Shown here piece by piece: positions 2 to 33,283 of a stretch of DNA of 64,000 nucleotides. How positions within the stretch are numbered: the first letter of the stretch is position 1; the number at the start of each line of letters is the position of its first letter. The translations under genes and the position numbers were made by a program. This DNA comes from Helicobacter sp. 11-8110. Its GTDB lineage: Bacteria > Campylobacterota > Campylobacteria > Campylobacterales > Helicobacteraceae. Under the pieces are notes generated by a model. The model was not told where the DNA came from. It saw only the letters and a program-made list of their open reading frames with translations, and did no database searches. The stretch lies in assembly GCF_003288905.1 (NCBI RefSeq), contig NZ_NHYL01000003.1, forward strand, positions 1 through 64,000, given 5' to 3'.

Positions 2-181
2 CCTAATCTTAAACTCCCTAATTTAGAATCTTATCCTGATTACAAAGAATCTTTAAAAGAAAAAGAATGTCTTACTTATAAACTAGGAGAAGCTTTTATA
101 AAAGCAAGTAAAACTTGGTATAAGGGTGGATATGTTAAGTTGTGGTTTGAAATTAGGAAGTTGAAGGGGGAGAGAAAGTAA
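2..181 (+). CDS. 3' end of a surface polysaccharide transferase-like gene (partial)
   Basis: Only the last 59 codons are in the window; the frame is open from base 2 to a TAA at 179-181. The tail is basic and aromatic, with the segment YKLGEAFIKASKTWYKGG followed by a Lys/Arg-rich end. I associate this kind of C-terminus with glycosyl- or sugar-transferases of capsule, LOS and LPS loci in Campylobacter and Helicobacter; that family link is from memory. The catalytic part lies outside the window, so no reaction can be assigned. The last ~46 codons are nearly duplicated on the other strand at 44481-44619. Confidence 0.55.
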   Translation, partial: PNLKLPNLESYPDYKESLKEKECLTYKLGEAFIKASKTWYKGGYVKLWFEIRKLKGERK

Positions 182-188
182 CCCTCTA

Positions 189-965
189 TCACCCAAATAG
201 CATTTTATCAAACATAATAGCTAAAACAAACAAATACATCGCCAAAAGCGCGTATTTGTGTTTCTTAGAATCCACTTTACTTAAAGTCCAAATCCCAATC
301 CTAACCCCAACCAAAGAAGCAATACCGACAATACAGCCTTGGATATAATCCACATAGCCATGCAATGCTAAAGAAGTAAATCCTGATACTGATGAGAAAA
401 TCACAAAAAATAGCGAAATAGGGACAATTTGCTTTGAGTTATATCCAAGGTAATACGCCAAAAGCGGTGCTAACATCATTCCTCCGCCAATTCCTAGCGA
501 AATTGCGAAAACTCCAACCACACACCCACAACCCATTAAAAACAAAATTGACTTCCAACCTTCGCCCACTTTACGTTCGCCACCATAAGCGTTAGTAAAG
601 AAAAATCGCACAATACTATAAACAATAAAAAGGCTAAATATAATTTCTAGAATACCAGAGGACACACTAGAAATAACTAGCCCACTAAAAGACGCCCCTA
701 TAAGCCCACCAATCCCCACATAAACACCATCTCTAAAATCTAAATTTTTCTTTTTATAATTCACATAAGAGCCATAAACAGAAGAAAAAATCATTTGCAT
801 AATGGAGATTCCAATGGCAATTTTAATATCATTTCCAAGTAAAATCATCATTGGAACAATAATCGCCCCACCGCCAATTCCAAAAAGCCCTGCTAGAATC
901 CCTGCTAAAAGCCCCACTGCAAGCAATCCACCTATACTCCAAAAGTCCAGTGTCAAAACTTCCAT
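189..965 (-). CDS. TSUP (TauE/SafE) family membrane permease
   Basis: This is a polytopic inner-membrane protein of 258 residues, almost entirely hydrophobic. It shows the internal duplication typical of the TauE/SafE (TSUP) family: a GIGGG motif near residue 30 and a second GIGGG in the C-terminal half. Members move sulfite, sulfonates or other organic anions; the substrate cannot be read from sequence. I chose ATG 965 because an AAAGG box lies about 7 bases upstream. An in-frame ATG at 989 would add eight residues but has no clear ribosome site. The gene is divergent from selD. Confidence 0.85.
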   Translation of the reverse strand: MEVLTLDFWSIGGLLAVGLLAGILAGLFGIGGGAIIVPMMILLGNDIKIAIGISIMQMIFSSVYGSYVNYKKKNLDFRDGVYVGIGGLIGASFSGLVISSVSSGILEIIFSLFIVYSIVRFFFTNAYGGERKVGEGWKSILFLMGCGCVVGVFAISLGIGGGMMLAPLLAYYLGYNSKQIVPISLFFVIFSSVSGFTSLALHGYVDYIQGCIVGIASLVGVRIGIWTLSKVDSKKHKYALLAMYLFVLAIMFDKMLFG

Positions 966-1020
966 ACTCAAACCTTTATTTAAAAACAATATTTTATTAT
1001 AAAAATAAGCTAAAAATTGC

Positions 1021-1026
1021 TAAAAT
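1021..1026 (+). promoter_or_regulatory. candidate selD -10 box
   Basis: TAAAAT is preceded by TGC, an extended -10 pattern common in Helicobacter. It would start transcription near 1033, just upstream of the GGAG ribosome site at 1039-1042. That excludes the out-of-frame ATG at 1025 as the selD start. No good -35 box is visible, which is usual in these bacteria. Confidence 0.4.
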
Positions 1027-1050
1027 GGCAAAAAATTTGGAGAACTTAAA

Positions 1051-2100
1051 ATCAAAGACGATATTAAAATTACACATTTCGTTCAGTCTGCTGGTTGAGC
1101 TGCAAAAGTGGGTCTGGAAGACCTTTCACATCTCTCTTGCAATCTCAAAAATAACAAGGATTCAAATATCCTTGTGGGTTTTAGCGGAAACGAAGATGCC
1201 GGAATCTATAAAATTAGCGATGAACTTGCGCTTGTGCAGAGTGCGGATTTTATCACACCACTTGTCAATGATCCCTATACTTATGGGCAGATTGCAGCGG
1301 CAAATTCACTTAGCGATATTTATGCTATGGGTGGAGAGGTGAAAACTGCGCTAAATCTACTAATGTGGGATAGTTGCCACCTTGATTCACAAATGATTAG
1401 CGAAGTGCTTGAGGGTGGATTATCCAAAATCAAAGAAGCTGGAGGTGTGCTACTTGGCGGACATACGATAGGAGACAAGGAGCAAAAGTATGGGTTAAGC
1501 GTAACAGGAATCATTCATCCACAAAAAATATGGCGCAACAACACAGGACAAATTGGGGATTGCTTAATCCTTACCAAACCCATTGGAATGGGGATTTTAA
1601 CAACAGCGCTTAAGGCAGATATGCTTGATTCTAAAGTGGAGCTAAAAATCTCTCAAATTATGGCAACACTTAACCAAAAAGCCACTAAAATAGCTTCTAA
1701 ATACACCATTCATGCCTGCACAGATATTACAGGTTATGGGCTTTTGGGGCATTTATATGAGATGACAAATCCCAAAATCTCGATTAAGCTTTATTCAAAC
1801 CAAATTCCACTTTTACAAGAAGCCATAGAATTTGCCAAAATGGGAATTATTCCCGGAGGTAGCCACTCTAATCAAAAGGCAATCAATCCTTATTGCCATT
1901 TTGCACTTCCTTTGGATTCTTTGTATTTGGGATTGGAAATTTTACTTTTTGATGCGCAAACTTCTGGTGGATTAGTCTTTGCCACCCCTTATAATCAAGC
2001 TCAAAGTTTGCTAAATGAATTAAAAAACGAAGGAATAGATTCAGCTCAAATTATTGGAGAAATCATACCTGCAAATGATTCTCCTATAAATATTATCTAA
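1051..2100 (+). CDS. selD: selenide, water dikinase SelD, selenocysteine-containing
   Basis: SelD makes selenophosphate from selenide and ATP for selenocysteine and selenouridine synthesis. The open frame downstream (DDAG-type ATP site, GGHTIGDKE, CTDITGYGLLGHL, DAQTSGG) matches the whole family. Reading upstream through the in-frame TGA at 1096-1098 gives SAG-U-AAK, which aligns with E. coli AGCGCK (Cys17, Lys20), so the TGA is read as selenocysteine at residue 16. With a start at 1051 the protein has 349 residues, the expected length. No ATG, GTG or TTG lies in frame between the stop at 1021 and the TGA. The best-placed codon is ATC at 1051, eight bases after GGAG (1039-1042). The product is certain; the start is not. 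Confidence 0.9.
1111..1123 (+). promoter_or_regulatory. bacterial SECIS-like hairpin in selD
   Basis: GGTCT-GGA-AGACC forms a perfect 5-bp stem with a GGA loop, extendable by a G-U pair. The loop G at 1116 lies 17 bases after the TGA at 1096-1098. A short stem with a G at the start of its apical loop, about this far downstream of the UGA, is what SelB recognises in bacterial selenoprotein mRNAs. It supports selenocysteine insertion rather than a nonsense mutation. Confidence 0.7.
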
Positions 2101-2251
2101 GGCAGTTTTTTCATATTTCTGCCTGTTGCTTAAATCTACAAGCAGAAATCCCAAGTCTTGTATCTGCAAAACTACAAAGATAAATTTTTCTATCCATTTT
2201 TTGGATTATCTCCTTCAACTTTTTTGCTTTCCAAAATCTACCCAACAATCC

Positions 2252-3718
2252 CTAAAACAACGCTTCATCCATTTCTTGTGGTATCTCTAGCTCCATAAGC
2301 CTCAAAACACTTGGGGCGATATTATTTAATCCGCCATTTTTGACTTCTTTTACACTTGGAGCAGAGACAAAACACCAAACTTCTCCTATGGTATGGTTTG
2401 TTAGAATCTCACCCTTATCATTTTGCATTTCTTCACAATTCCCATGATCACTTGTCATCACAAAGGCATAATCTTTCTCTTTGGATTTTTCATAGATTCT
2501 ACCGATCTCTCTATCCACTGCTTCAACCGCCCTAACTGCCGCTTCAAAAACCCCTGTGTGTCCCACCATATCACCATTTGCAAAATTCACCACAATAAAA
2601 TCATAATCCTCTTCCATCGCCTTTAATACCATATCGCCAACTTCTCTAGCACTCATTTCAGGCTTTTGATCATAAGTCTTTACCTTAGGAGAAGGGACTA
2701 AAACTCTCGTTTCATTAGGATATGGTTCTTCTATCCCACCATTGAAAAAGAAAGTTACATGAGCGTATTTTTCGGTTTCAGCTGTGTGAAATTGTCTTAA
2801 ATTATGGTTTGAAATCACTTCGGCAAGAGTGTTTGGAATGCTTTCTTTGGGGAATAAAATAGGAAAATTAAAGTTTTTATCATAAGGCGTCATAGTTACA
2901 AGCGGGATTGGTATCCATTTTTTACGCTCAAATCCGCTAAATTCTTCATTTCCAAGCGCACTGACAATCTCCCTTGCTCTATCGCTTCTGAAATTCACAA
3001 ATATCAAGCCATCTCCCTTTTTGATTCCACTTGCATCAAAACTAGCAGGCTTGATAAATTCATCAAAAACTCCTTGATTATAGTGTTCTTGAATGTATTG
3101 CTTAGGCGATATGGTTTGCAGATTCTCCGCACAAACAATCACATTATACGCCTCTTCCACACGCTCCCAGCGATTATCCCTATCCATAGCATAGAATCGA
3201 CCACTAATGGAAGCGATTTTAATATTTTTATTTTGGATTCTACGCTCCACTTCTTCTAAAAATTTCAAAGCAGTTTGTGGCAAGACATCCCGCCCATCTG
3301 TGATTAGATGCAACAAAATCTCAAATCTCTCTTGCAATCCTTCAGCTAGGGTAAGAATATGCTCTAAATGCGAATGCACTCCACCATCACTCATTAATCC
3401 CACTAAATGAATCCGCTTACATTCCTTTAAAACTTCCAAAGCAGGATTGCCTAAAAGGCGACCCTCTTGAATAGCTTGGTTAATTTTCACCAAATCTTGA
3501 TACAAGATTCTCCCACTTCCCATACACATATGCCCCACTTCAGAGTTTCCCATTTGCCCCTCTGGCAATCCCACAGAAAGCCCATAAGTTTTTATCATTC
3601 CATAAGGAACTTCCTTAAATAAGCGATCATAATTAGGCTTCTTAGCCTCAAAAAATGCATTAAACTTCTCTTGCTTACTATAACCAATCCCATCTGTAAT
3701 AACCAAAATTGTTTTCAT
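2252..3718 (-). CDS. gpmI: 2,3-bisphosphoglycerate-independent phosphoglycerate mutase
   Basis: This enzyme interconverts 3- and 2-phosphoglycerate in glycolysis and gluconeogenesis in the cytoplasm, using two Mn ions and a phosphoserine intermediate. The alkaline-phosphatase-like metal site begins at Asp9 (ITDGIG). The catalytic serine is Ser59 in [21 protein letters not shown], and SDHGNCEE with a following TNHT complete the substrate and metal sites. The 488-residue length is normal for epsilonproteobacteria. It is convergent with selD and divergent from mraY. Confidence 0.96.
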
Positions 3719-3798
3719 AATTCATTCCATTCTTTTTAAAGTTTATTTAGATAGAATCCTATCCAATTTTTTTATAATTTTTAATTGAAGTTTGATGA

Positions 3799-4857
3799 AT
3801 GTTGTATTATTTTTATGAATTTCTAAACATTAACCTGTTTCAATATATCACATTTCGCGCTGCCATTGCCTTTTTTGTTGCATTTTTGATGACTATTTTT
3901 TTAATGCCCTATTATATTTTATGGGCAAGTAGCAAAAAGGCTAATCAGCCCATCTCACAATTTGCACCCAAAAACCACCAACAAAAAGTCAATATTCCAA
4001 CAATGGGCGGAATCGTTTTTATTTTTTCTACCTTAATTGCAGCCTTGCTTTGTGCTAAACTCAATAATTCTTATGTGATTCTTGGAATCTTAAGTCTTAT
4101 TTTATTTTCTAGCATTGGTATTTATGATGATTTCTCCAAAGTAATGCAAAAGAAAAATGCAGGAATGAGCGCACGGACAAAGTTTGCATTACAAGGATTA
4201 AGCGGACTTTTTATCGCATTGGGGCTTTATTTTTATGGAATGAATAGCCACCTTTATCTCCCTTTTTTAAAAAATCCCATTTGGGATTGGGGGATATTAA
4301 GCCTTTTATTTTGGGTGCTAGTTTTTGTTGCTACTAGCAACGCAGTCAATCTCACTGATGGCTTAGATGGATTAGTGGCAATTCCCTCCATTTATGCGCT
4401 TGTTTCTTTAGGAGTTTTTGTTTATGTTGCAGGTCATTCAGGGCTTAGTGCTTATCTTTTGTATCCTAAGATTCAAGAGAGTGGAGAAGTTGTGATTCTC
4501 TCTGCAGCACTCATTGGTGCTCTTATTGGATTTTTGTGGTATAACTGCCACCCTGCACAAGTTTTTATGGGCGATAGTGGAAGTCTTGCTATCGGTGGAT
4601 TCATTGCTTATATGGCAATTATTTCAAAAAATGAAATTTTACTTTTTGTGATAGGATTTATCTTTGTTGTTGAAGCCCTATCCGTGCTCTTGCAAATTGG
4701 TAGCTACAAAACAAGGGGCAAAAAGCTCTTTTTAATGGCACCACTCCACCACCATTTTGAAGAAAAGGGCTTAAAAGAGAGTAAAATTATCGTGCGGTTT
4801 TGGATTGTAGCTCTAATGAGTAACCTCATCGCACTTTTAACCCTCAAACTTCGCTAA
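3799..4857 (+). CDS. mraY: phospho-N-acetylmuramoyl-pentapeptide transferase MraY
   Basis: MraY transfers phospho-MurNAc-pentapeptide from UDP to undecaprenyl phosphate, making lipid I at the inner membrane. The 352-residue protein has about ten membrane segments. Family hallmarks are all present: GIYDDFSK with the paired aspartates, [10 protein letters not shown]-like, [11 protein letters not shown] and the APLHHHFE histidine motif. Only nine bases separate it from murD, so the two cell-wall genes form an operon. Confidence 0.97.
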
Positions 4858-4866
4858 AGGATATGA

Positions 4867-6081
4867 ATGCTTTTTTTACTCGGATATGGCAAAACCAATC
4901 AAGCAATTGCTGATAAATTTAGCCCTTGCTACATTTTTGATGATAACTTTAAGGAAGTCTCTAAAGATTCTAAAGGCAACACGCTTTTGCCCTCAAACCA
5001 ACTAAAAGATTATTTAGAAAAATACCCTAACGCACAAATTATCACAAGCCCAGGTATCCCTCCACAAAATCCGATGATAAAGCTTAGCCAACCCATTAGT
5101 GAATATGATTTTTTTGCCTCCACAATGCCCTTTAGCGTGTGGATTAGTGGAACCAATGGAAAAACCACTACCACGCAAATGCTAACCCACCTCCTCCAAA
5201 ACAAAGGTGCTCTTAGTGGCGGAAATATTGGCACTCCCTTAGCTAATCTTAACCCAAAAGCTCCCCTTTGGATTTTAGAAACTAGCTCTTTTACAATCCA
5301 TTACACCAATATAGCTAGACCCAATCTATACCTACTTTTACCCATAACCCAAGATCACATTAGCTGGCATGGCAATTATGAATCTTATATCGCAGACAAA
5401 CTCAAACCTCTTTTGTCGATGAAAGACAAAGAAATAGCCATCATCCCCCAATCTTTGCAGTCTCATTCTTTTTGTCAAAAAACCCTAGCTAAACTTTTTT
5501 TCTACTCTGATTCTCAATCTTTAGCAAAGCAGTTCTTCCTAGATCTAAACAAAATTACCTTTAAAGAACCCTTTTTACTCGATGCCATTCTTGCTCTTAG
5601 TGCTACACGGATTCTCTTTAATGAGGTGGATTATGATTTGCTTAATAGTTTTAAAATCGGCGCTCATAAAATTGAAGAATTTTTTGATAGCCAAAATCGC
5701 CTTTGGGTTGATGATAGCAAAGGCACTAATCTTGATGCCACAATGGAGGCTATCAAACGCTATCAAAATAAAGCACTCCATTTGATTCTGGGAGGAGATG
5801 ACAAAGGTGCAGATTTAACGCCACTTTTTAAATTGATAGAAAAATGTCAAATCACCCTTTATGCCATCGGATCAAATACCCAAAAAATAACTCTTTTGGC
5901 TAAAGATCACCATATCCCTTGTTTTCCTTGCCATACCCTAGAAACTGCGGTGCAAGAAATCCACAAACACCACACACAACAAAGCATCGCAATGCTTTCA
6001 CCTGCTGCAGCAAGTTTAGATCAATTTAGCTCTTATAAAGAAAGGGGTGATAAATTTAAAGTCTATGTCCAATCTCTCTAA
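4867..6081 (+). CDS. murD: UDP-N-acetylmuramoyl-L-alanine--D-glutamate ligase MurD
   Basis: MurD adds D-glutamate to UDP-MurNAc-L-Ala in the cytoplasm. The Mur-ligase ATP loop GTNGKTTTT is at residues 95-103 and the C-terminal DDSKGTN motif follows near residue 280. At 404 residues it is shorter than the E. coli enzyme (about 440) because the N-terminal UMP-binding domain is compact, a trait I recall from Helicobacter. ATG 4867 follows AAAGG at the end of mraY. An overlapping ATG at 4863 is in another frame. Confidence 0.95.
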   Translation: MLFLLGYGKTNQAIADKFSPCYIFDDNFKEVSKDSKGNTLLPSNQLKDYLEKYPNAQIITSPGIPPQNPMIKLSQPISEYDFFASTMPFSVWISGTNGKTTTTQMLTHLLQNKGALSGGNIGTPLANLNPKAPLWILETSSFTIHYTNIARPNLYLLLPITQDHISWHGNYESYIADKLKPLLSMKDKEIAIIPQSLQSHSFCQKTLAKLFFYSDSQSLAKQFFLDLNKITFKEPFLLDAILALSATRILFNEVDYDLLNSFKIGAHKIEEFFDSQNRLWVDDSKGTNLDATMEAIKRYQNKALHLILGGDDKGADLTPLFKLIEKCQITLYAIGSNTQKITLLAKDHHIPCFPCHTLETAVQEIHKHHTQQSIAMLSPAAASLDQFSSYKERGDKFKVYVQSL

Positions 6082-6084
6082 ATT

Positions 6085-6990
6085 TTAATATTTGTTTTGC
6101 AAGCTTTCATTAATAAACTCTTCAAAACGCATTAAAATAGTATTGATAGGATGACTTTTTCGCTTCAAACTATAAAAATGTCTCTCTAAATTAAGATTAA
6201 CAATTTCAATAGAAAATAAAATGCCATTTTTCAGCTCTTGCTCTATAGCTACTTCAGAAAAAACCGCAATAGCTCCTTTATTTACCACCAAATCTTTAAT
6301 AGCCGTTGTCCTATCTAATTCTAAAAAAATTGGAACTTCTTTTTTTAATTCTCCCAAAGCATTTAAAAAGCTATCCCTTAATCCCGAACCATATTCCCTA
6401 AAAATCCACTTTTTATCTAATAATTCATCAATATAACGCGGTTTTGAAGCCAAAATAAAATCATTACTTGCTACAATCAAACGATCTTCACACAAAACTT
6501 CACGAATTAACCCCTCACTTTGTGCATATTCTAGCCCAATTTCACCCTCCACTAATGCCAATTCTACGCTACCATTTTTTAAGAGATTTAAGCATTCTTG
6601 AGTGTTATAAATCTTTAAATTAACCTTGACTTTTGGATATACCTTTGCAAAATCAAATAAGATTCTAGGCAAAAAATACTCCCCTATAGTGTGTGTGGCT
6701 ACAAGATTAATTTCTCCTATCAAAACACCCTCTTCTCCCAAAGCTTCCAAGCTCGAATAATAACTCTGCACTACTTCCACCCACAAACTCCCAAGATATA
6801 AAGCTCTTGTTGTAGGGACAAGCCTTTTCCCCAATCTCTCAAAAAGAGTGATTCCAAGCATTTTTTCTATATTTCTAATAAGCACCGAAACATTTGGCTG
6901 TGTAATTTTAAAATTTTGTGCGGTTAAAGTCGGACTTTTGGTATGCAATAAATCTAAGAAAATCTCCAAATCTCTAATTTTCAATTTCAC
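6085..6990 (-). CDS. LysR-family transcriptional regulator
   Basis: A 301-residue regulator with the standard LysR plan: an N-terminal winged helix-turn-helix at residues 1-65 (FKITQPNVSVLIRNIEKMLG is the recognition region) and a periplasmic-binding-protein-like effector domain after about residue 90. It is transcribed divergently from the YeiH-family transporter 150 bases away, the classical arrangement for a LysR protein that controls its neighbour. The inducer is unknown. Confidence 0.9.
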   Translation of the reverse strand: MKLKIRDLEIFLDLLHTKSPTLTAQNFKITQPNVSVLIRNIEKMLGITLFERLGKRLVPTTRALYLGSLWVEVVQSYYSSLEALGEEGVLIGEINLVATHTIGEYFLPRILFDFAKVYPKVKVNLKIYNTQECLNLLKNGSVELALVEGEIGLEYAQSEGLIREVLCEDRLIVASNDFILASKPRYIDELLDKKWIFREYGSGLRDSFLNALGELKKEVPIFLELDRTTAIKDLVVNKGAIAVFSEVAIEQELKNGILFSIEIVNLNLERHFYSLKRKSHPINTILMRFEEFINESLQNKY

Positions 6991-7064
6991 CCCTTTTTTA
7001 TTTAAAAAATCTTAGAATCCGATATAAAAGCCATTTTATTTTTGTTGTTAAGTATTCCATATTT

Positions 7065-7077
7065 TTAATTAAATTAA
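7065..7077. promoter_or_regulatory. candidate LysR operator (inverted repeat)
   Basis: TTAATT-A-AATTAA is a perfect inverted repeat in the region shared by the divergent LysR and YeiH genes, about 47 bases before the inferred start of transcription of the latter. LysR boxes are short AT-rich dyads of the T-N11-A kind. The surroundings are so AT-rich that chance is a real alternative. Confidence 0.3.
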
Positions 7078-7105
7078 TATATTTTTATTATGATACATTT
7101 GGTGC

Positions 7106-7111
7106 TATAAT
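7106..7111 (+). promoter_or_regulatory. -10 box for the YeiH-family gene
   Basis: A consensus TATAAT preceded by TGC sits 30 bases before the ATG at 7142, giving a short leader that contains the AGGGG ribosome site at 7131-7135. Confidence 0.6.
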
Positions 7112-7141
7112 CCCACAAAAATTCTCAAATAGGGGTTGGAA

Positions 7142-8254
7142 ATGTTAAGAAATAAACATTTATTTCAAATGATTTCTTCAAATTTCAAAGGACTTTTATT
7201 AGTTAGCTTAATTGTTGCCTTTGCCTTTTATCTCTCTGGAATCCAAGCTATTCAAGACACCACCCATTTAGCTGCTACTGCTTTTGCAATTATCATTGGA
7301 GCAGCCCTCTCACCTTGGTTTTTTAGATTCCAACACACACTCCAAGCAGGTGTGCATTTTAGCGCTAAAAAACTTTTGCGACTAGGAATCGTGCTTTATG
7401 GATTTAATATTACTTTTAGTGAGCTATACAGCATCGGTTTTTACGGATTTTTGATTGCTTTTATTGTGATTGTAAGTATTTTTTTAATTGCCTTATTTGC
7501 AGGGACAAAAATCTTTAAGCTTGATAGGGAAACTTCTATGCTTGTGGGTGCTGGAAGCGCTATTTGCGGTGCTGCTGCAGTTTTAGCTCTTGAATCAAGC
7601 CTAAAATCCGATTCTTTTAAAGGCGTTGTTGCCGTTGGTAGCGTGGTAATTTTTGGCTTGATTGCGATGTTTTTATACCCCATTGCCTTTAGCACTGGAA
7701 TCATACCCTTATTAGATAGCGATGGAATGGGGCTTTTTATGGGAGCCACTTTGCATGAAGTTGCCAATGTTGCTGGTGCTGCTGAAATGGCAAAAGAGAT
7801 GACAAATGGAATCTTCACTCAAAGTGCTGCTAATCTTGCAGTCATCATTAAAATGATGCGCGTGATTTTACTCGTGCCTTTTTTATTGATTGTTGCTTAT
7901 TTTATCGCTAGGGATAACAATGCGCAAAGCACCGCCCAAAAAACTAGCAAGAGAATTGACATTCCTTATTTTGCTTTTATGTTTTTAGGGGTTATTGTGC
8001 TTAATACTTTTTTAAGCGCCCATAAAGACACACTTATTTTAAATGTCTTTAGCATTCAATCTATTGTTGAAAGCGGTCGATTCCTTTGCACACTTTGTAT
8101 TGTTTATGCTATGGCTGCTTTAGGGCTTCAAATTGATTTTAAAAAATTTATCAAATTAGGTGGTAAAGCCTTTGGTTTAGCCTTTTTGCTCTTTCTCATC
8201 TTAATCTTTGGGGGATATTTACTAACCCTCTGCTTCCAAGGAATCCTTTGGTGA
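7142..8254 (+). CDS. YeiH/UPF0324 family putative anion exporter
   Basis: A polytopic inner-membrane protein of 370 residues, with roughly ten hydrophobic segments and the family features VGAGSAICGAAAV and GATLHEVANVAGAA. It belongs to the UPF0324/YeiH family, often annotated as putative sulfate exporter; the substrate has not, to my knowledge, been firmly shown. ATG 7142 is preferred over TTG 7136 because AGGGG lies six bases before the ATG. The divergent LysR gene suggests inducible expression. Confidence 0.85.
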   Translation: MLRNKHLFQMISSNFKGLLLVSLIVAFAFYLSGIQAIQDTTHLAATAFAIIIGAALSPWFFRFQHTLQAGVHFSAKKLLRLGIVLYGFNITFSELYSIGFYGFLIAFIVIVSIFLIALFAGTKIFKLDRETSMLVGAGSAICGAAAVLALESSLKSDSFKGVVAVGSVVIFGLIAMFLYPIAFSTGIIPLLDSDGMGLFMGATLHEVANVAGAAEMAKEMTNGIFTQSAANLAVIIKMMRVILLVPFLLIVAYFIARDNNAQSTAQKTSKRIDIPYFAFMFLGVIVLNTFLSAHKDTLILNVFSIQSIVESGRFLCTLCIVYAMAALGLQIDFKKFIKLGGKAFGLAFLLFLILIFGGYLLTLCFQGILW

Positions 8255-24205: not shown

Positions 24206-25702
24206 CTACTTATGATTAATTATGCCATTTAGATCTTGCAATATCGCTTCTGCTTGTTGTTGCGTGTTTTTTAGAGATTCTAAAATCTCTCCCACTTCAC
24301 GCAAGGATTTTTCCTCTTTTGTATTTGGATTTTTGGCACTTAGGTCATAATTCCTTGCTTTTAGCTCCTCCAAACTCACAAGATAAGAATGCGGTGTGAT
24401 TTTTCGTTGTTTGTAGCACTCCAAAAATTCTTTAAAATGCGCATATTTCAAAGGCTTATTTTTGGTGAGTTTATAAGGCAGGATAAGCTCATAATAATAC
24501 ACATTGCTATCTTGCTCATCTACAATGCCCCTTAATCCTTTGGAGAAAAATAGCACATTGGTTTTTACTGCACTATATGGGAGAAACACGCCACTAGGTA
24601 GGCTTAGCACACATTCTAGGTTATAGTTTTCTATCAAATCTTGCTTGACTTTCACAAAGGCATTTGAATTTTGAAACAACACCCCTTCAGGCACGATAAT
24701 CGCACATCTACCATTGGTTTTGAGTGATTTTAGGATATGTTGCAAAAATAAAAGCTCTGTGGCGTTGGAAGGCACGATAAAATTGCCCTGAATCTGCTCT
24801 TTTTCTTTGCCGCCAAAAGGAGGATTTGCTAAGATTACTTCATATCTTTCACTTTCTATTATGTCTGTTATTCTCTTACTTAGCGTGTTTGTTTTGATGA
24901 TATTTGGGGATTTTATCCCGTGAAGTATCATATTCATAACCCCCATAGCATAGCTAAGTGGCGTTTTTTCTTTGCCAAAGAGTGCGTCTTTTTGCAAAAA
25001 CTCTAGCTCCTCTACGCTAAGATTTGCTTTTTGTCCTTTTGCCCTATCTTCATACAAAATATGTAAAAAACTCTCCACCAAAAATCCGCAACTCCCACAC
25101 GCAGGATCATAGATTCTCTCTTTTGGCTTAGGGTTGATAACTTCTACCATTACTTTAACCAACGCCCTTGGCGTATAAAACTCCCCACTATTACCGCCAT
25201 CGCTTCCCATATCTTTGAGTAGTTTCTCATACACATCACCTAGTGCAAACACATCACTTTCTTTGCTGAAGCTAAGCTCATCGATGAGGTTTATCACTTC
25301 TCTTAGCGTGTGTCCATTGGCGATTCTGTTGTCGATAAATTCAAAGATTCCACCGATTTTATACGCGATACTTTTAAAGTCCTCATTGTTTTTGAAACTT
25401 TTGAGATAAGGGAAAAGCTCATTATTGACAAACTCTAGCAAATCACTTCCACTTAGTGCATTTTTCACATCAAGTTTGCCATCTTTTTTGGGTGCTGCCC
25501 AGCTCTGCCACGCATACTTAGAATCTAAAATGCTCACATAAGGCACATCATTCAAAAACGCTTCATCTTTTAATTCTCTTTCATAATCATCTAAAAACTT
25601 CAAAAACAATATCCAGCTAATCTGCTCACTATAATGCATCGCACCACTTATGCCATCATCACGCCTTAGTATGTCTGTGATTCTATCGATTGTATTTTGC
25701 AT
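24206..25702 (-). CDS. hsdM: type I restriction-modification methyltransferase subunit HsdM
   Basis: HsdM is the N6-adenine methylase subunit of a type I system and works as HsdM2-HsdS. It has an N-terminal HsdM_N helical domain, the SAM motif DPACGSCG at residues 199-206 and the catalytic NPPFGG at 293-298. At 498 residues it is complete. It begins directly after the fic stop with no intervening base, so it depends on the fic promoter or on read-through from hsdS. It is convergent with the broken dehydrogenase gene. Confidence 0.96.
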   Translation of the reverse strand: MQNTIDRITDILRRDDGISGAMHYSEQISWILFLKFLDDYERELKDEAFLNDVPYVSILDSKYAWQSWAAPKKDGKLDVKNALSGSDLLEFVNNELFPYLKSFKNNEDFKSIAYKIGGIFEFIDNRIANGHTLREVINLIDELSFSKESDVFALGDVYEKLLKDMGSDGGNSGEFYTPRALVKVMVEVINPKPKERIYDPACGSCGFLVESFLHILYEDRAKGQKANLSVEELEFLQKDALFGKEKTPLSYAMGVMNMILHGIKSPNIIKTNTLSKRITDIIESERYEVILANPPFGGKEKEQIQGNFIVPSNATELLFLQHILKSLKTNGRCAIIVPEGVLFQNSNAFVKVKQDLIENYNLECVLSLPSGVFLPYSAVKTNVLFFSKGLRGIVDEQDSNVYYYELILPYKLTKNKPLKYAHFKEFLECYKQRKITPHSYLVSLEELKARNYDLSAKNPNTKEEKSLREVGEILESLKNTQQQAEAILQDLNGIINHK

Positions 25703-26773
25703 TTAAAACATTCCTTTTCTAAAAAGTCTCAAAAGTTCTCTATTTATATAATAATGATTTCTACCTATCTTAACACATTCTAGCACCCCTAAATTTTCAC
25801 AAATTTTAAGATATTTTGAGGCACTTTGCCTAGAAATATCTAATTTTTTTATCAAAAAATCTATCTTTGTATAAGGATGAGAAAACAAAAGTTCTACAAA
25901 ATCTTTGCTATAAAAATTTGTTTTGTTTTGCAAAATTTCACTTACATTATTCATCATTTTTTCTATTGTGGTAATAGTTTCAATCGTTTTTGTAGCGGTT
26001 TGTTCTACGCCTTTTAGTATATATTCTATCCATTCCAAAATCGCACCCTTATCACGCACTTTTTGCAAAAGACTATAATATTCTACTTTATTTTTTACAA
26101 TATAAGCACTCAAATATAAGATAGGCAAATCAAGCAAGCCTTTATAAACCAAATAAAGTATATTTATAATCCTGCCTGTTCTGCCATTGCCATCATAAAA
26201 TGGGTGAATGCTTTCAAATTGATAATGAATAATTGCCATTTTTACCAAAAAATCAAGCTCATCTAAAGCATCATCATTAATGTATCGTTCTAGATTCTCC
26301 ATAAGCCTTAATATATCATTATGATTTTGTGGGGGTATGTGTTTGATTTCTCCTGTAATAGGGTTTTTAAGCATTGTGCCACTTTGTTTTCTAAACCCTG
26401 CATTGTTTCTCTCTAGTCTTTTTTGAATCTCCAAAATATGAGCATTACGCAACAACCCCTCTTTTTTCAAAAGCTCATAACCCTTTTTTAAAGCATTTTC
26501 ATAATCTTTGACTTCTTTGGTTGCTTGTGTAAGTCTGCTTTCATCAATTTGGGACAAAAAAAGTTCATCGTGAGTTGTGATAATATTTTCTATCTCACTT
26601 GAATCTTTTGCTTCTTGCAAGATTAAGGCATTAATCAATATATCTGGATTTGGCATACTTTTGCTAAGTCCATTTAGTTCGGCTAATTTCCTTGAAGCAC
26701 TAATGATGAGATTATAAATACTTGCGTTAAGCTCTAGATTCAAGGGTAGTTTTGGCGGTATGTATTCTTTCAT
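25703..26773 (-). CDS. fic: Fic family protein with C-terminal winged helix
   Basis: Fic proteins usually transfer AMP from ATP to target hydroxyl groups. The core HPFYDGNGRTGR (190-201) is intact, with the catalytic His190. Upstream is SSEIEN (58-63), the (S/T)xxxE(G/N) inhibitory motif, placed N-terminal to the core as in class II Fic proteins, so activity is probably self-restrained through Glu62. Residues about 290-350 form a winged helix-turn-helix (FLIKKLDISRQSASKYLKIC). The target is unknown. It is wedged between hsdS and hsdM and preceded by a repeat-rich promoter it may itself bind. Confidence 0.92.
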   Translation of the reverse strand: MKEYIPPKLPLNLELNASIYNLIISASRKLAELNGLSKSMPNPDILINALILQEAKDSSEIENIITTHDELFLSQIDESRLTQATKEVKDYENALKKGYELLKKEGLLRNAHILEIQKRLERNNAGFRKQSGTMLKNPITGEIKHIPPQNHNDILRLMENLERYINDDALDELDFLVKMAIIHYQFESIHPFYDGNGRTGRIINILYLVYKGLLDLPILYLSAYIVKNKVEYYSLLQKVRDKGAILEWIEYILKGVEQTATKTIETITTIEKMMNNVSEILQNKTNFYSKDFVELLFSHPYTKIDFLIKKLDISRQSASKYLKICENLGVLECVKIGRNHYYINRELLRLFRKGMF

Positions 26774-26802
26774 AAAATTTCCATATATTAAAATTTCTAA
26801 AA

Positions 26803-26893
26803 TTTTTTAACATTATAAGAGAATATGTTAAAAAAATCCAAAATTTTTAACATATCTTGCTGTTGTGTTAAAGTTTGGCAAATTTTTTAACAT
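26803..26893. promoter_or_regulatory. fic-hsdM promoter with repeated operator half-sites
   Basis: On the minus strand a TATAAT at 26817-26812 overlaps the half-site ATGTTAAAAAA (26813-26803). Facing it is TTTTTTAACAT (minus strand, 26835-26825), giving an 11-bp perfect inverted repeat with an 11-base spacer. A second dyad, AACAT-N11-GTGTT, lies at 26849-26869 with the same spacer, its centre about 40 bases from the first. A third ATGTTAAAAAA is at 26893-26883, touching the hsdS stop. This is the pattern of a multi-site operator; the winged helix of Fic is the obvious candidate ligand. Confidence 0.6.
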
Positions 26894-28162
26894 TTATAAC
26901 TTTCCGCTAAAAGCTTGAGTAAGCAGGGATTGCTTAAGCTCCTCGTAGTCTTGTAGCTGTGCGTTATAAAGCTCTTTTAGCTTTTGTATCTTATCAAAGA
27001 CAGAATCTAAGTGCATAGCGATTTGCTCTTGCTCTTTTATGTCTTTTGGGAGGGGGATTTCAAGTTTTGAAAATTCAGTTTTATTGATGATAGGCAAAGT
27101 AGTTTGTGAGGCATTTTTTTTAAGAATGGATTGAAAATATTTGCTATGACACACAAAAAATAAATACTTTGATAAGACATTAGGGCTTGGAATAATGGCA
27201 TTAATTTGTTGATTACAACTTCCAATAATTCCACTTAAGCCAATTTTTCCAATAGAAGCCCCAATACACACAACAAGAAGTGTATTTTTGGGAAGCTTTC
27301 TTGCACTTTCAAAACCTAATTTTGAAAGATTATCACTCGCCTTAATAGTATTACCACTCCCTAAATCACTAGGTTTAAATAATGGATAGTCATTGCCATA
27401 AAACTTTGGATTATTTTTGCTAGGGGTGCTACCTGTAATAATGTCTCCAATCTCCCCCAAGGTTTTCCATTCCCAATGTTGCGGGAGGGGATAGGGAGAT
27501 TGTGCATCGTGTGTGCTAGGATTCTGTGTAGATTCTGTAGAATCTATAGAATCTCCCAAAGGATTAAAAGCTCTATCAAGCACACTTTGGGCTAACTCAT
27601 CGAGATTAGCAAGATTTGCCTTGAGCAACTCCACGCTTGTATCAATCTTTTCAAACGCCAAATCCAAAATCCCCACTATCCTCCCTTGCTCCTTGAGCGG
27701 CGGAAGTGGAATCTCAATTTGCTTAAGCTTTTGCTTATTAAGCGTTTTGCCCTTAACTGCATTATCTACATATTTATCTAGGTTTGTAAATTTTAAAGCG
27801 TAATCTAAAAAATATTTATTAACATTCTCATCTTTGATAAAAATTGCCGCAATAGCTTCATTTGTATATAAATCACAATCGGCGAAAGCAGTTTTACCTA
27901 ATGTTAATTTAAAACTCATCAACAAAGTCCCTTTTGGAACTTTTTTCATATTTGTCTTTACAATCGCTTCATCTGAAATTTTTTCATTTGAGGAAGATAT
28001 AAACTTATCCTTGAGGTCTCTAATGCTTAGCCAAATATTTTCACCTTGAAAAAAGTCAAGATTGTTTCTATTAGGCGTTTTACCTATTTGAATCTCGGCA
28101 ATATTTTCTAAGGTTTTCCATTCCCACCCCTGCGGTAAATGTGTCATTGTGTTATTTTGCAT
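26894..28162 (-). CDS. hsdS: type I restriction-modification specificity subunit HsdS
   Basis: HsdS sets the DNA target. The 422-residue protein has two target-recognition domains, each opening with nearly the same phrase (GWEWKTLENIAEIQIG near residue 11, HWEWKTLGEIGDIITG near 232). Each is followed by a helical conserved region (LPPLKEQGRIVGILD and PLPKDIKEQEQIAMHL). The two domains differ, so the site should be bipartite and asymmetric. Its ATG overlaps the stop of the DUF3037 gene. Confidence 0.95.
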   Translation of the reverse strand: MQNNTMTHLPQGWEWKTLENIAEIQIGKTPNRNNLDFFQGENIWLSIRDLKDKFISSSNEKISDEAIVKTNMKKVPKGTLLMSFKLTLGKTAFADCDLYTNEAIAAIFIKDENVNKYFLDYALKFTNLDKYVDNAVKGKTLNKQKLKQIEIPLPPLKEQGRIVGILDLAFEKIDTSVELLKANLANLDELAQSVLDRAFNPLGDSIDSTESTQNPSTHDAQSPYPLPQHWEWKTLGEIGDIITGSTPSKNNPKFYGNDYPLFKPSDLGSGNTIKASDNLSKLGFESARKLPKNTLLVVCIGASIGKIGLSGIIGSCNQQINAIIPSPNVLSKYLFFVCHSKYFQSILKKNASQTTLPIINKTEFSKLEIPLPKDIKEQEQIAMHLDSVFDKIQKLKELYNAQLQDYEELKQSLLTQAFSGKL

Positions 28163-28878
28163 TATGCTGATTGTATAATATTTGTTTCAAAATGCTCTTC
28201 TATATTGTCATCTGTAATATATGATACATAATCAATATGATTTGGCTTTAAAAAATCTTCAACTTTATTTTTAATATCTTTTTGTGAATTTTTAATAATG
28301 TCTAAAAAATACATTTTCATTGTTGTATATTTCTTATCGTTAAGACTAAAATAGATTGTTTCCATAATATCATTTTTATCCCCAATACTACCAAATCTGT
28401 TAAAAAACTGCTTGTCTTTATATAAAATTTTAAATGAATATTGATTATCACTAGACATTTGAAAGAATTTATTATATTTTTTTTCATAAATTTCTCTAGT
28501 TTTCTCGTTAATTTCTCTAAATCTGTCTTTTTTGTCTTGTTCTTTAAACTTATATCCAATGTAATCCCTATAAAGATTCTTTGTTACTTCATCTATACTG
28601 CTACTACTTGCGACGACATCAATTTCACTAAAGCGGAGGTATTCTCCATACCAAGAGTTAATATCTGTTTCTTTTTTTAAGCTCTCTAAAAAGAACATAA
28701 ATATTTTTTTGTCTAATGAAAGGAATTTAAATAAATGTTTAATATGTTCTTCTTGGCTATCTATGTAGAGCTGCCTATTCTCATTTTCCCCTACCACCCA
28801 AACACCAACATTAAAAAACTCATCACTACGCAAATAAGGATAGTATCTGACTAATCTATATTTATAAACCTGACGCAT
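28162..28878 (-). CDS. DUF3037 family protein
   Basis: A 238-residue protein whose N-terminus (YKYRLVRYYPYLRSDEFFNVGVWV) matches the DUF3037 pattern I recall: a strand-rich start with a conserved FNVGV. The rest is charged and helical. No enzyme motif is seen. DUF3037 genes are, to my knowledge, often next to HipA-like kinase genes, as here, where the start overlaps the kinase stop by 17 bases. A partner or antidote of the kinase is a reasonable inference, not shown by sequence. Confidence 0.78.
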   Translation of the reverse strand: MRQVYKYRLVRYYPYLRSDEFFNVGVWVVGENENRQLYIDSQEEHIKHLFKFLSLDKKIFMFFLESLKKETDINSWYGEYLRFSEIDVVASSSSIDEVTKNLYRDYIGYKFKEQDKKDRFREINEKTREIYEKKYNKFFQMSSDNQYSFKILYKDKQFFNRFGSIGDKNDIMETIYFSLNDKKYTTMKMYFLDIIKNSQKDIKNKVEDFLKPNHIDYVSYITDDNIEEHFETNIIQSA

Positions 28879-29659
28879 ACAAAATCTCCTTATGTGATTG
28901 TCTTTGAGATATTATTTCACATAGCATTCCTAATTCCTCTGTGTCGATTGGATACCATTCGCTAGGAATTAAACTCATAATATTTTGTATTTCTTGTTTT
29001 TGAACTTTTTTATTCAAAATTGCCGTTGTTTTTCTGTAATCATCAAATATATAATCACTAAAACAACACTTACTATAATACAACTCATTGGGCATATTTA
29101 GTTTAAGTTTATTGGGTGAGTGTAGGTTATCCAATAACTCCATACAATCAAATGCTAAACCAAAGTCAATCAGCCATTTTTTATTTTTGCAATCAACTAA
29201 TATATTTGGATTTTTTTCATCTCTATCTGTATTCATTAATCTAGCATCGTAATTTATAGTATTTTTTATAAACGCTTTATCGTTTTTATTCTTAAATTTA
29301 CTTGTATTTGGAATAAACTCTATCCCAAGATTTAAACCTTTAGAATTATGTATATTGTGATATGCTTGCTGCTCTCTTTCGCTACCATTTTGAAATTTAT
29401 TAACCATAAGCAATGTTTCATCGGTGATATTAAGTAGGCAAATTTTAGGTATATTGACTACCCTTAATAAATCTAAATATAAATAAGAAAAAATTTCTAT
29501 AAAAAGATTCTTAGCACATACGCTAGTGCCATCTAACACTTGCCTTGTTTTTAAGATATATTGTTTATCATTATTAGCCACTATTAATATGGGATATGTT
29601 ACACCATAATCCATAACTTTTATGATTCTATCAATATCCCTAGTCTCTATGTTTTCCAT
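28862..29659 (-). CDS. HipA-like protein kinase
   Basis: A 265-residue kinase-fold protein. It has an ATP-binding lysine in QYILKTRQ, a catalytic loop MNTDRDEKNPNIL (Asp base and Asn metal ligand) and the metal-binding LIDFGLAFD. This order matches the stand-alone HipA-like kinase family rather than full HipA, which has an extra N-terminal subdomain. HipA kinases phosphorylate aminoacyl-tRNA synthetases and cause growth arrest; whether this one does is unknown. ATG 29659 follows TAGGG; a start at 29674 adds five residues. Confidence 0.82.
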   Translation of the reverse strand: MENIETRDIDRIIKVMDYGVTYPILIVANNDKQYILKTRQVLDGTSVCAKNLFIEIFSYLYLDLLRVVNIPKICLLNITDETLLMVNKFQNGSEREQQAYHNIHNSKGLNLGIEFIPNTSKFKNKNDKAFIKNTINYDARLMNTDRDEKNPNILVDCKNKKWLIDFGLAFDCMELLDNLHSPNKLKLNMPNELYYSKCCFSDYIFDDYRKTTAILNKKVQKQEIQNIMSLIPSEWYPIDTEELGMLCEIISQRQSHKEILYASGL

Positions 29660-29715
29660 AAAATCCCTACGCAATCATTTATATTATTATAATATTTTTT
29701 TGATTCTCTTGATTA

Positions 29716-32040
29716 TTAAATCTCATATATCTCCCTTTGCAAATCCTCTATACTCTCTTTTAGTGCGGAGATTCCGCCAAAGTCATTAATGATTTCTTGC
29801 ATAGAGCCAAGTGAGCTAAGCTCTAGCAAAGTGCTAATGTTGTCAAAGGCGTTGATTCCGTGTTTTTCATAATATCCTAGCAAAAACTCTATAAGTCTTA
29901 TAGCTCTTTCTTTATGGAATCTTTGCAAAAAGCCACTTTTTCTCACGCTTATCACTCGCTCACTGCGTGAGACTATCTCACTGCTAAAGCTAATGTGTGC
30001 CAAAATATCATAAATATCGCAATCTTTTCGCTCAAAAATCTCTTGTAGATTCTCTAGCACTTCATCATCAATCCCCTCATTTTGGAGACTTTTTAAGAAT
30101 GCTTGTCTATTTTTTGGCTCACTCCACATCGCCTTTAGTTTCTTTTCGTCATCATAATATGCACCAAGCTTGCCGATGAGAAATTCCAAAAACTCCTTTG
30201 TGCCTAGCGGTTTGCCATCTCCTCCTACATAACGCGTTTGTATATCTAGCACTTGTAGCTTGGTGCTTTTTAGGTGAATCACTACCTTTTGGCTTGGCGT
30301 TTCATCTGTTTTGTTTGATTGTTTGTTGCTTTTGGTGCTTACAGGGAAACTAGTATCAGAATCTGTGTTACTCTCTTCATCTATGGCATTGCTTTCTCCA
30401 TCCCATTTTGGATCATAAAAAAGCTTGGTCGCACCAAAAAAATCAAGTATTGTAAAAAAGTCTTTGCCCTCATACACTCTTGTGCCTCGCCCTATGATTT
30501 GCTTAAACTCAATCATTGATCCGATATTTGCTAAAAGCACGATATTTCGGACATTTTTAGCATCGACACCTGTTGTTAGCATTTTGGAGCTTGTGAGAAT
30601 CACAGGATAGCTTTTATCATTGTCTTGAAATTCTTTAAGATAGTTTAGCCCTATAGTCCCCTCATCGCTTGTAACTCTCACACAATAATCATCTCTTTTA
30701 ACCTTTTTGTGTGTATCAATAGCGATTTTTATAGCACTTGCGTGGGCTTGATTAGCACAAAAGATAATCGTTTTATCCATAGGATTGATAAGCTCTAGAA
30801 TCTTTTTGGCGATAAATTCGTTGTATTTGGGTAGTGTGATCTCACGCTCAAACTTGATTGGCGCATAATGTCCGCTTTGTAGTTCGCCTTGCACAATGTC
30901 ATCGGGGTTGTATGTATAGCCATCGCTTAGAGTGGTGATGATACGCTTGACTTTATAAGGCGTGAGAAAGCCATCTTCTATCCCAGTTTTTAGGCTGTAT
31001 TCATACACAGCGTTACCAAAATATTTGTAAGTATCTACATTATCGCTTCGCTTTGGCGTGGCAGTAAGCCCCAAATGCACTGCACTTTCAAAATAATCTA
31101 GCACAGCCCTCCAGTTCCCCTCTTGATTGGCTCCGCCTCTATGGCATTCATCTATGATAATAAGATCAAAGAAATCTTTTGGGTATTGCAAATACAACTT
31201 GCTTTCTTCTTTGTGCCTGTCTTGTTCGGCGTCTTCTTGAATATTCTCCTCACTGCTTAGGCTTTGATAGATACCAAAAAACACATCAGCACTTGTAGGC
31301 ACTTTGTCTTGATTTTTGCGTATCTCTCCTGCACTAATCTCTTTGCAATCCTCCTCTATGGGATTAAACTCATTTAAAGCTTGATTTCGTAGGGTAATGC
31401 GATCACAAAGAAAGAGAATCTTCGGCTTTCTATTGGCATTATCAAGATTCCATTTGGATTGCAAGAGGCGATAGCAAAGTGCAAAGGCGATAGTTGTCTT
31501 GCCTGTGCCAGTGGCGAGGGTGAGCAAGATTCGCTTTTTGTTATTGATAAGGGCTTGTATCACCCTATCTAGTGCTATTTTTTGATAATAACGCAATGGC
31601 TTTTGTGGGATATGAAGTTCTTTTTGAGTTAGGAGTTTGTGTTGCCATTCCAAAAGGTTGCCAAAAATCCTATCAAAGAGAATCTGTGGGCTTGGAAACT
31701 CATCTATATAGCGACCTTGTGAATCTAGTCTATCGTATTCATAAATGTCTATGCCATTTGTAGCATACACAAAACGCACACCAAGAATCTCGCCATATTC
31801 TATGGCTTGAGATAATCCATCTAGTGAATCTTTGCCAAGCCTTTTTGCTTCGATAATAGCTAGATTGTTGTTTTGGAAGCACAGCAAATAATCAGCAAAT
31901 TTTCTAACACCCCTTTTACCTCCAAGCAGTTTTCTACCATCGGTAAAATAATATTCACGCTTGATAAAATCCTCGCTCCAGCCAGAATCTTTGAGTTTGG
32001 TATCGATAAATTTGATTCTTGTATCCGTTTCCCCTAGCAT
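29716..32040 (-). CDS. hsdR: type I restriction endonuclease subunit HsdR
   Basis: HsdR translocates and cuts unmodified DNA. The nuclease domain has D50 (KFADYLL) and E64-x-K66 (IIEAK). The helicase part has Walker A ATGTGKTT (176-183), DECH (297-300), GLTATPKR and the motif VI IGRGTRVYEGKDFF. At 774 residues, with an EcoEI-like C-terminus, it resembles the IB-type subunits. All catalytic residues are present, so it looks functional. Start ATG 32040 follows GGGGAG. The kinase gene begins about 55 bases after its stop. Confidence 0.95.
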   Translation of the reverse strand: MLGETDTRIKFIDTKLKDSGWSEDFIKREYYFTDGRKLLGGKRGVRKFADYLLCFQNNNLAIIEAKRLGKDSLDGLSQAIEYGEILGVRFVYATNGIDIYEYDRLDSQGRYIDEFPSPQILFDRIFGNLLEWQHKLLTQKELHIPQKPLRYYQKIALDRVIQALINNKKRILLTLATGTGKTTIAFALCYRLLQSKWNLDNANRKPKILFLCDRITLRNQALNEFNPIEEDCKEISAGEIRKNQDKVPTSADVFFGIYQSLSSEENIQEDAEQDRHKEESKLYLQYPKDFFDLIIIDECHRGGANQEGNWRAVLDYFESAVHLGLTATPKRSDNVDTYKYFGNAVYEYSLKTGIEDGFLTPYKVKRIITTLSDGYTYNPDDIVQGELQSGHYAPIKFEREITLPKYNEFIAKKILELINPMDKTIIFCANQAHASAIKIAIDTHKKVKRDDYCVRVTSDEGTIGLNYLKEFQDNDKSYPVILTSSKMLTTGVDAKNVRNIVLLANIGSMIEFKQIIGRGTRVYEGKDFFTILDFFGATKLFYDPKWDGESNAIDEESNTDSDTSFPVSTKSNKQSNKTDETPSQKVVIHLKSTKLQVLDIQTRYVGGDGKPLGTKEFLEFLIGKLGAYYDDEKKLKAMWSEPKNRQAFLKSLQNEGIDDEVLENLQEIFERKDCDIYDILAHISFSSEIVSRSERVISVRKSGFLQRFHKERAIRLIEFLLGYYEKHGINAFDNISTLLELSSLGSMQEIINDFGGISALKESIEDLQREIYEI

Positions 32041-32291: not shown

Positions 32292-33136
32292 TTAAGGCAA
32301 AGTAATTTTAAGCACTTTTCCTTCAACCATTCTTGGAATCCAAAGATTCTCTCCATCGCTCACCATATCTGCTGGTCCTTTCATAGCTGGTAAATCAAGC
32401 TTTTCTATCTTTCCATTTTTATCCAAGCGATAAATCACACCTTGCAAATTTTCTCCCCAATCACTTACTAATAAATCTCCATTTTTAGCCCACACTACAC
32501 CATCTAAAGTACCCAAAGGCTCACTTAAAATGCACTTTGCTTTTTAAATCAATGCTTATGATGCTTCCTTTAGCCTTTCCATTTGGATCATAGCCCACAG
32601 CAATTAGGCGATTATTCTTTAAATCAAGCAAGATTCCATTAGGTCCGCCAAACTTTGAATCCACAACCACAAAAGTTTCATATTGCTTATTTTTAACATT
32701 CACTTGATGAATAATCCCTGTCCCTGTGTCGCTCACAAGCAAATTCTCATCATCTAAAGCCACAATGTCATTTAAAAAGATTGCACCTTTAATGGGTAGA
32801 TTCAACACTTCTTTTTTACTTTTTAAATCAAATCCCTTAAGCGTATCAATATCCACTACATACAAAACACCATTGATTGTATTCATACCCTTTGGTGCAT
32901 TAAGATTGGATAAAAATTTCTTTTCTATAATTTTTCCACTCTTATCAAGCTTTGAAATAAAACCATCATTATCTTTATTAAATGGCTCTAACTTCTCCCC
33001 CACATTCCCCACAAAGACATCTTCACCTACGATAAAAAACACTCTCAGGATAAGAAAACCCATCAATCTCTTGGGAAAAAGCACTTGCAGCCAAAGCCCC
33101 TACCAAAGCAAAACTTACTGCGATTTTTTTAAGCGT
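32292..33136 (-). pseudogene. secreted NHL/SMP-30-type beta-propeller protein, decayed
   Basis: Three pieces make one protein. A signal peptide ([20 protein letters not shown]) sits just after AAGGAG, but the start position (33136) is ACG, not ATG. A T6 run near 33035 (minus strand) shifts the frame between the signal part and [16 protein letters not shown] second shift near 32520 separates SIDLKSK from EPLGTLDGVVW. The propeller-like repeats ([32 protein letters not shown]) resemble the Campylobacter proteins labelled putative ATP/GTP-binding. Three lesions make a true pseudogene likely. Confidence 0.8.
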
Positions 33137-33283
33137 TGTTACTCCTTTATCTTAAAATTAAAAATATAACTATAGACAAAATTTTAAAAAATAAGAATAA
33201 TTATCTAAAAATAAATTTTTTAATTTTTAAAACAAATAACAAGCAATCCCAAAGACCAACTTGATTTAAAATCATTTTGTATT

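Follow-up and report, generated by a model that had tools for sequence, protein, structure and literature searches.

Tandem dyads at a fic promoter inside a type I restriction-modification locus as probable operators of the adjacent SoFic-type protein

What recognizes the repeats that fill the short interval between hsdS and fic in Helicobacter sp. 11-8110, and could the Fic protein encoded next to them control its own synthesis together with that of a DNA methyltransferase? The repeats lie in the window, that is, the whole stretch of 64,000 nucleotides analysed here (positions 1 to 64,000 of contig NZ_NHYL01000003.1), within a locus in which hsdR, hsdS, and hsdM share one strand, which makes it a type I restriction-modification locus. 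Comparison of the array with those beside related fic genes makes it very likely that its three tandem dyads are operators of the adjacent SoFic-type Fic, and that autorepression there would also limit the supply of HsdM. The features on which this reading leans are the following.

24206-25702, minus strand: hsdM, type I methyltransferase subunit, 498 amino acids
25703-26773, minus strand: fic, SoFic-family protein of 356 amino acids with Fic_N, Fic, and SoFic-like_C winged-helix domains
25793-25831, minus strand: codons of the recognition helix (residues 315-327), placed by the structural model and Pfam
26785-26813: dyad O1, ATATTAAAATTTCTAAAATTTTTTAACAT, nearest fic, with one perfect and one degenerate half-site, covering the predicted transcription start
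26812-26817, minus strand: predicted -10 box TATAAT, in the O2/O1 linker with its last two bases inside O1
26825-26853: dyad O2, ATGTTAAAAAAATCCAAAATTTTTAACAT, arms perfect over 10 bp, spacer 9 bp
26865-26893: dyad O3, GTGTTAAAGTTTGGCAAATTTTTTAACAT, immediately next to the hsdS stop codon
26894-28162, minus strand: hsdS, specificity subunit, same strand, upstream of the array

The repeat unit of the array is a 29-bp dyad, ATGTTAAAAA-N9-TTTTTAACAT, and O1, O2, and O3 follow each other upstream of fic at an exact period of 40 bp; a repeat search of the window recovered a 31-nt repeat in three tandem copies with start-to-start distances of 40 and 40. An earlier note on this DNA had counted four perfect ATGTTAAAAA half-sites and a degenerate one, and these are indeed present at 26804-26813 (minus), 26825-26834 (plus), 26844-26853 (minus), and 26884-26893 (minus), with the degenerate one at 26865-26874; a sixth half-site, also degenerate, occupies 26785-26794, beyond the coordinates that the note had covered. 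The same note had assembled them into two dyads with an 11-base spacer (centres 26819 and 26859), thereby pairing arms across the linkers, while the real unit is the 9-bp-spaced dyad in three copies. The linker-spanning dyad was rejected as the unit because loci elsewhere that have a single unit (e.g., L066 and L120) retain the inner dyad. The note had also seen TATAAT among the half-sites with fic directly downstream, which stands, except that the box belongs to the linker between two dyads and not to the interior of one. As a word, the half-site is only mildly enriched in the window (43 matches at ≤1 mismatch versus 32 expected), so that the signal sits in the arrangement and not in the word. 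The perfect form, TGTTAAA-N13-TTTAACA, occurs at this locus only in the 1,654,271-bp genome, and a dispersed repeat was rejected for this reason; a megablast search among plasmids did not find a near copy of the locus.

The candidate binder is encoded next door. The Pfam models PF13784 (Fic_N), PF02661 (Fic), and PF21248 (SoFic-like_C) match the Fic protein in this order, all above their cut-offs, and the PADLOC SoFic model matches over its full length with 390 bits; as the NCBIfam model ProtAdlyltaseSoFic gives 345 bits versus an equivalog cut-off of 550, the protein is, by its sequence matches, a member of the wider SoFic family and not the named equivalog. The active-site motif HPFxxGNGRxGR is present as HPFYDGNGRTGR (residues 190-201) and the N-terminal inhibitory motif (S/T)xxxE(G/N) as SSEIEN (residues 58-63). 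An AlphaFold model resembles 3zcn and 3eqx (template modelling scores of 0.78-0.79), which is the SoFic fold with a C-terminal winged helix; the latter comprises helices 304-311 and 315-327 and wing strands 332-336 and 339-343. The mean predicted local distance difference test score of the model is 65, with about 80-91 in the region of the recognition helix. Thus, both the Pfam match to SoFic-like_C and the model agree with the earlier statement that this Fic ends in a winged helix. Two residues at the start of the recognition helix are of importance below: residue 316 is Gln (codon 25826-25828) and residue 314 is Ser.

Dyads of the same type are found upstream of SoFic orthologs. The loci compared were picked by similarity to the window Fic, so distant SoFic branches are sparsely represented and several loci are metagenome assemblies; the near-fic zone was set by hand to extend 260 bp upstream of fic and about 420 bp beyond its 3' end. 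A first scan of 88 loci (Campylobacterota, Bacteroidota, Pseudomonadota, and others) yielded 144 units near fic versus 5 in the remaining 696 kb of these loci. Since the model had been trained on the near regions, it was frozen and then applied to 43 further loci, 37 of which were positive, with 80 units near fic versus 15 elsewhere; several of these 15 are extra units of the same arrays just beyond the near limits. In total, 104 of the 129 SoFic loci, which come from many phyla, have such an array beside fic; of the 108 gaps between neighbouring units, 105 measure 40 or 41 bp. At L155, an expanded 5' array reaches from about -358 to -42 relative to fic; its five detected units are 79 bp apart, with intermediates visible between at least some of them. 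Arrays accompany 66 fic genes without recognized hsd neighbours and 38 with them, so the array belongs to fic and not to hsd; repeats serving hsdS inversion were rejected on the same ground. Of 59 related genomes, 10 contain the Helicobacter-type dyad, each time beside fic, a fic remnant, or a site at which fic has been replaced. The earlier note had named lack of conservation upstream of orthologous fic genes as the result that would speak against its proposal; instead the repeats are kept beside SoFic genes across phyla, with hsd or without it.

Conservation next to fic does not by itself name the binder; here the half-sites are informative as the bases following ATG change with the recognition helix. 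Gln316 goes with ATG-TTA, Lys316 with ATG-(G/T/A)GTA, Leu316 or Ile316 with ATG-TATA or TAAAG, Pro316 with ATG-TAAA, and His314 with ATG-T(C/T/A)GAA. This two-residue rule fits 98 of 102 loci, the same loci having been used to derive it. As a predictor of the half-site, residue 316 ranks first among 347 Fic columns (mutual information 1.47 bits versus 0.96 for the next), and none of 20,000 permutations matched the value observed for it. When independent pairs differing in both traits were drawn on a tree from which the winged helix had been left out, protein and half-site changed together in nearly every draw, with agreeing independent switches in about 6 of 6 cases for Lys316, 5 of 5 for Gln versus Lys, and 4 of 4 for His314. 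In Sulfuricurvum-type loci with near-identical helices, the Gln/Lys difference goes with a switch from TTA to GGTA (L195 and L203 versus L063 and L075). Eight plasmid loci were fetched after the rule had been set up; L210, L211, L213, L215, and L216 fit it clearly, L212 loosely, and L214 is ambiguous, while L217, read by eye, suggests that Lys314 behaves like His314. Bacteroidota and Alphaproteobacteria are among the new plasmid loci that fit. Fic is thus, judging from these correspondences, almost certainly the binder of the array beside its own gene. If the link between residue and base holds, a Q316K protein would switch its preference between ATGTTAAAA and ATGGGTAAA dyads.

The position of the promoter suggests what binding might do. 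A -10 box (TATAAT) or a -7 element, which in Bacteroidota is TAnnTTTG, lies within a linker in sense orientation in 26 of 42 5' arrays and in antisense orientation in 2; such a -10 or -7 element between dyads is the layout expected of an autorepressor. In the proposed scenario, a Fic dimer would bind each 29-bp dyad with both of its C-terminal winged helices, and the bases that follow ATG would be read by residues 314 and 316; once occupied, the dyads would enclose and mask the -10 box and the start of transcription, and the fic-hsdM promoter would be repressed. The fic stop codon TAA (25705-25703) is followed without any gap by the hsdM ATG (from 25702), which leaves hsdM no space there for a promoter of its own, and hsdM is presumably co-transcribed with fic from the fic promoter. 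By repressing it, Fic would limit its own level and hsdM in one step, and it probably does restrict both its own supply and the methylase's; release from the array by some signal would let both fic and hsdM rise. In other hsd loci the array stands directly before hsdM (hsdR-fic-array-hsdM) or hsdS (hsdM-fic-array-hsdS), so that placement ahead of methylase or specificity genes recurs in differing gene orders, and we infer that Fic may lower hsdM or hsdS expression there too. The autoregulation by the winged helix of Fic that the earlier note had suggested thus gains comparative support from the arrays across phyla, the co-variation with the helix, and the -10 or -7 elements between dyads, and its extension to hsdM is favoured by the gene order here and by the arrays directly before hsdM or hsdS elsewhere; arrays 3' of fic are left unexplained by promoter autorepression.

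These 3' arrays are among the points that weigh against the autorepression reading. By position, the 129 loci divide into 53 with a 5' array only, 47 with a 3' array only, 4 with both, and 25 without a recognized array; one of the four (L004) has a weak match inside hsdM and is better read as 3' only, and some of the array-less loci have dyads of a different spacing (L060 and L083). Lying 3' of fic, a 3'-only array cannot serve as operator of the promoter from which fic is transcribed. Where a 3' array is present and the gene after it is known (50 loci), that gene is convergent in 8. Further, read-through from hsdR-hsdS could also transcribe fic-hsdM, as a terminator was not found. Finally, kinship among the sequences leaves few independent switches of helix and half-site (5 to 11), and part of the co-variation may still reflect phylogeny.

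The 3'-only arrays begin at or near the fic stop codon, and fic is often coupled to the preceding gene there. A general role of 3' arrays as operators of the next gene was rejected: of the 50 known next genes, 8 are convergent, and in other loci the array is followed by dnaX or cobQ. The 3' arrays of L180, L181, L186, and L056 precede housekeeping genes (dnaX-like, cysteine-synthase-like, and cobQ); these could be under Fic control, or the arrays could be left over from lost hsd genes. Some 3' cases (L191, L199, and L202) look, by eye only, like remnants of an hsdM start.

It is conceivable, if unlikely, that Fic binds the array mainly for a purpose other than promoter repression, with bound Fic as a roadblock or insulator that separates fic from the gene after it, or with the array as a store of inactive Fic. 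Such a role would suit the 47 loci whose only array runs from the fic stop codon, the rarity of a -10 box in the linkers of 3' arrays (4 of 37), the 3' arrays that precede hsdM or hsdS in hsd operons, and the finding that DNA binding alters the activity of a related class II Fic, CbFic2 (PMC10628234). However, the -10 or -7 element lies inside the array in the window and in most 5' arrays, and some 3' arrays precede unrelated genes (dnaX, cobQ) or convergent ones, so that a roadblock role is not general either. A further scenario, distinctly unlikely in our view, is that tandem sites hold the SoFic toxin inactive wherever they lie beside fic, until it is freed when a phage attacks the DNA or the restriction-modification system; the locus would then be its own antitoxin, which would explain arrays both 5' and 3' of fic.

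The remaining explanations take the array out of the hands of a DNA-binding Fic. That the repeats are transcribed into hairpins that bind and silence Fic, as in type III toxin-antitoxin systems, is very improbable: they do stand in tandem beside a toxin gene, and the transcript folds better than shuffled sequences (z -3.1), but arm mismatches show no G-U excess (58 versus 72 A-C), loops and linkers differ between units, a match in Rfam was not found, the half-sites co-vary with a DNA-recognition helix, and with the promoter inside the array only the last unit would be transcribed. The genome surely encodes further winged-helix proteins, one of which could own the operators with Fic as a mere neighbour; this is extremely improbable, as the array tracks fic over phyla and gene contexts, its bases follow Fic residue 316 above any other Fic column, and a target at a single locus of the genome suits a local regulator. 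The chance that the array is nothing but AT-rich palindromes, an intrinsic hsdS terminator, or a dispersed repeat is practically negligible; the sequence is AT-rich and starts right after the hsdS stop codon, but it is unique in the genome and has no detectable terminator pattern, perfect dyads with 10-bp arms and a 9-nt spacer occur at 17 loci versus 0.05 expected from shuffles of the 88 upstream regions, and units are enriched near fic in both the first scan and the held-out loci.

With autorepression by Fic as the preferred reading, the locus can be compared with known systems. The anticodon nucleases PrrC and RloC are encoded by toxin genes within hsd operons, PrrC being controlled through protein contact with the restriction enzyme; the placement of the toxin gene in a type I restriction-modification operon is alike, but these are not AMP-transferases. 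The closest precedent for the mechanism is CccR of Yersinia pseudotuberculosis, a Fic autorepressor that requires dimerization for binding and whose operator, mapped by footprinting, consists of two 10-bp repeats at a distance of 26 bp (PMC9755527). A palindromic operator at the protein's own promoter is common to both, in the window by sequence; the tandem dyads with a 9-bp spacer and a 40/41-bp period are, however, unlike the CccR-type operator. Moreover, CccR is a secreted effector, whereas SoFic is anti-phage and here resides within a type I restriction-modification operon, and binding was demonstrated for CccR, while for the window Fic it is deduced from comparison. The anti-phage SoFic proteins (3EQX, 3ZCN, 9TC4; Escherichia coli Sofic, PMC12249575) resemble the window Fic in sequence family, domain order, and fold. 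According to the Sofic report, the C-terminal domain takes part in toxicity, and an antitoxin, AS1, is named; its passages found by keyword do not mention a DNA site or transcriptional autoregulation (PMC12249575). CbFic2 of Coxiella burnetii, too, is a class II Fic and binds DNA by a winged helix-turn-helix at its C-terminus; it differs in that random DNA was used, a specific site was not identified, and the N-terminal domain is DUF4172 (PMC10628234). The BrxR/WYL regulators of phage-defence islands are likewise defence-linked winged-helix dimers with inverted repeats at their own promoters, but they are separate regulators without toxin activity, and their 10-11-bp repeats have a 5-bp spacer (PMC9122601).

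Among open-licence papers, a report of SoFic operators or autoregulation was not found. The present comparison supports adding SoFic proteins to the Fic autorepressors, apparently characterized by arrays of tandem sites, a rule that links residues to bases, and recurrent insertion into restriction-modification operons. How the widespread anti-phage AMP-transferase SoFic is controlled is poorly understood; the conserved array and the readable link between two residues and the bases make it a candidate sequence-specific DNA binder and offer an immediate starting point for testing what restrains it. Its genes recur in type I restriction-modification operons in which the array precedes hsdM or hsdS, which suggests a toxin that sets the supply of the methylase protecting host DNA.

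In some relatives of the locus, the toxin gene is decayed or exchanged. In genome G014 (L228), hsdM and most of hsdS have 96-97% DNA identity to the window, O2 and O3 are kept, and a RhuM-family gene replaces fic, O1, and the -10 box. Genome G002 (L229) contains a decayed fic (6851-7256) of which the C-terminal DNA-binding region alone is left, with two intact dyads 3' of it. In three close relatives from the genus of the window (L005, L010, and L029), fic is broken by stops or frameshifts and the array is retained, which suggests repeated toxin loss.

The order of genes on the minus strand of the window is hsdR, HipA_2-like kinase, DUF3037, hsdS, array, fic, hsdM. The three genes upstream of hsdS are:

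28162-28878, minus strand: DUF3037 protein, cargo in the hsdR-hsdS interval
28862-29674, minus strand: HipA_2-like kinase, cargo in the hsdR-hsdS interval
29716-32040, minus strand: hsdR, EcoAI-type restriction subunit

The kinase gene overlaps the DUF3037 gene, and the pair (28162-29674) has a weak match to the PADLOC candidate-defence model PDC-M66A. Comparison of L228 (3769-8826) with the window (25703-29674) shows that genes for a HamA-like protein and a helicase (Hachiman-like) replace HipA_2-DUF3037 between hsdR and hsdS; it looks as if the hsd genes formed a scaffold with two positions at which defence genes can be exchanged. Upstream of hsdR, a gene at 32292-33140 is apparently split into several reading frames and is likely a frameshifted secreted-protein gene.
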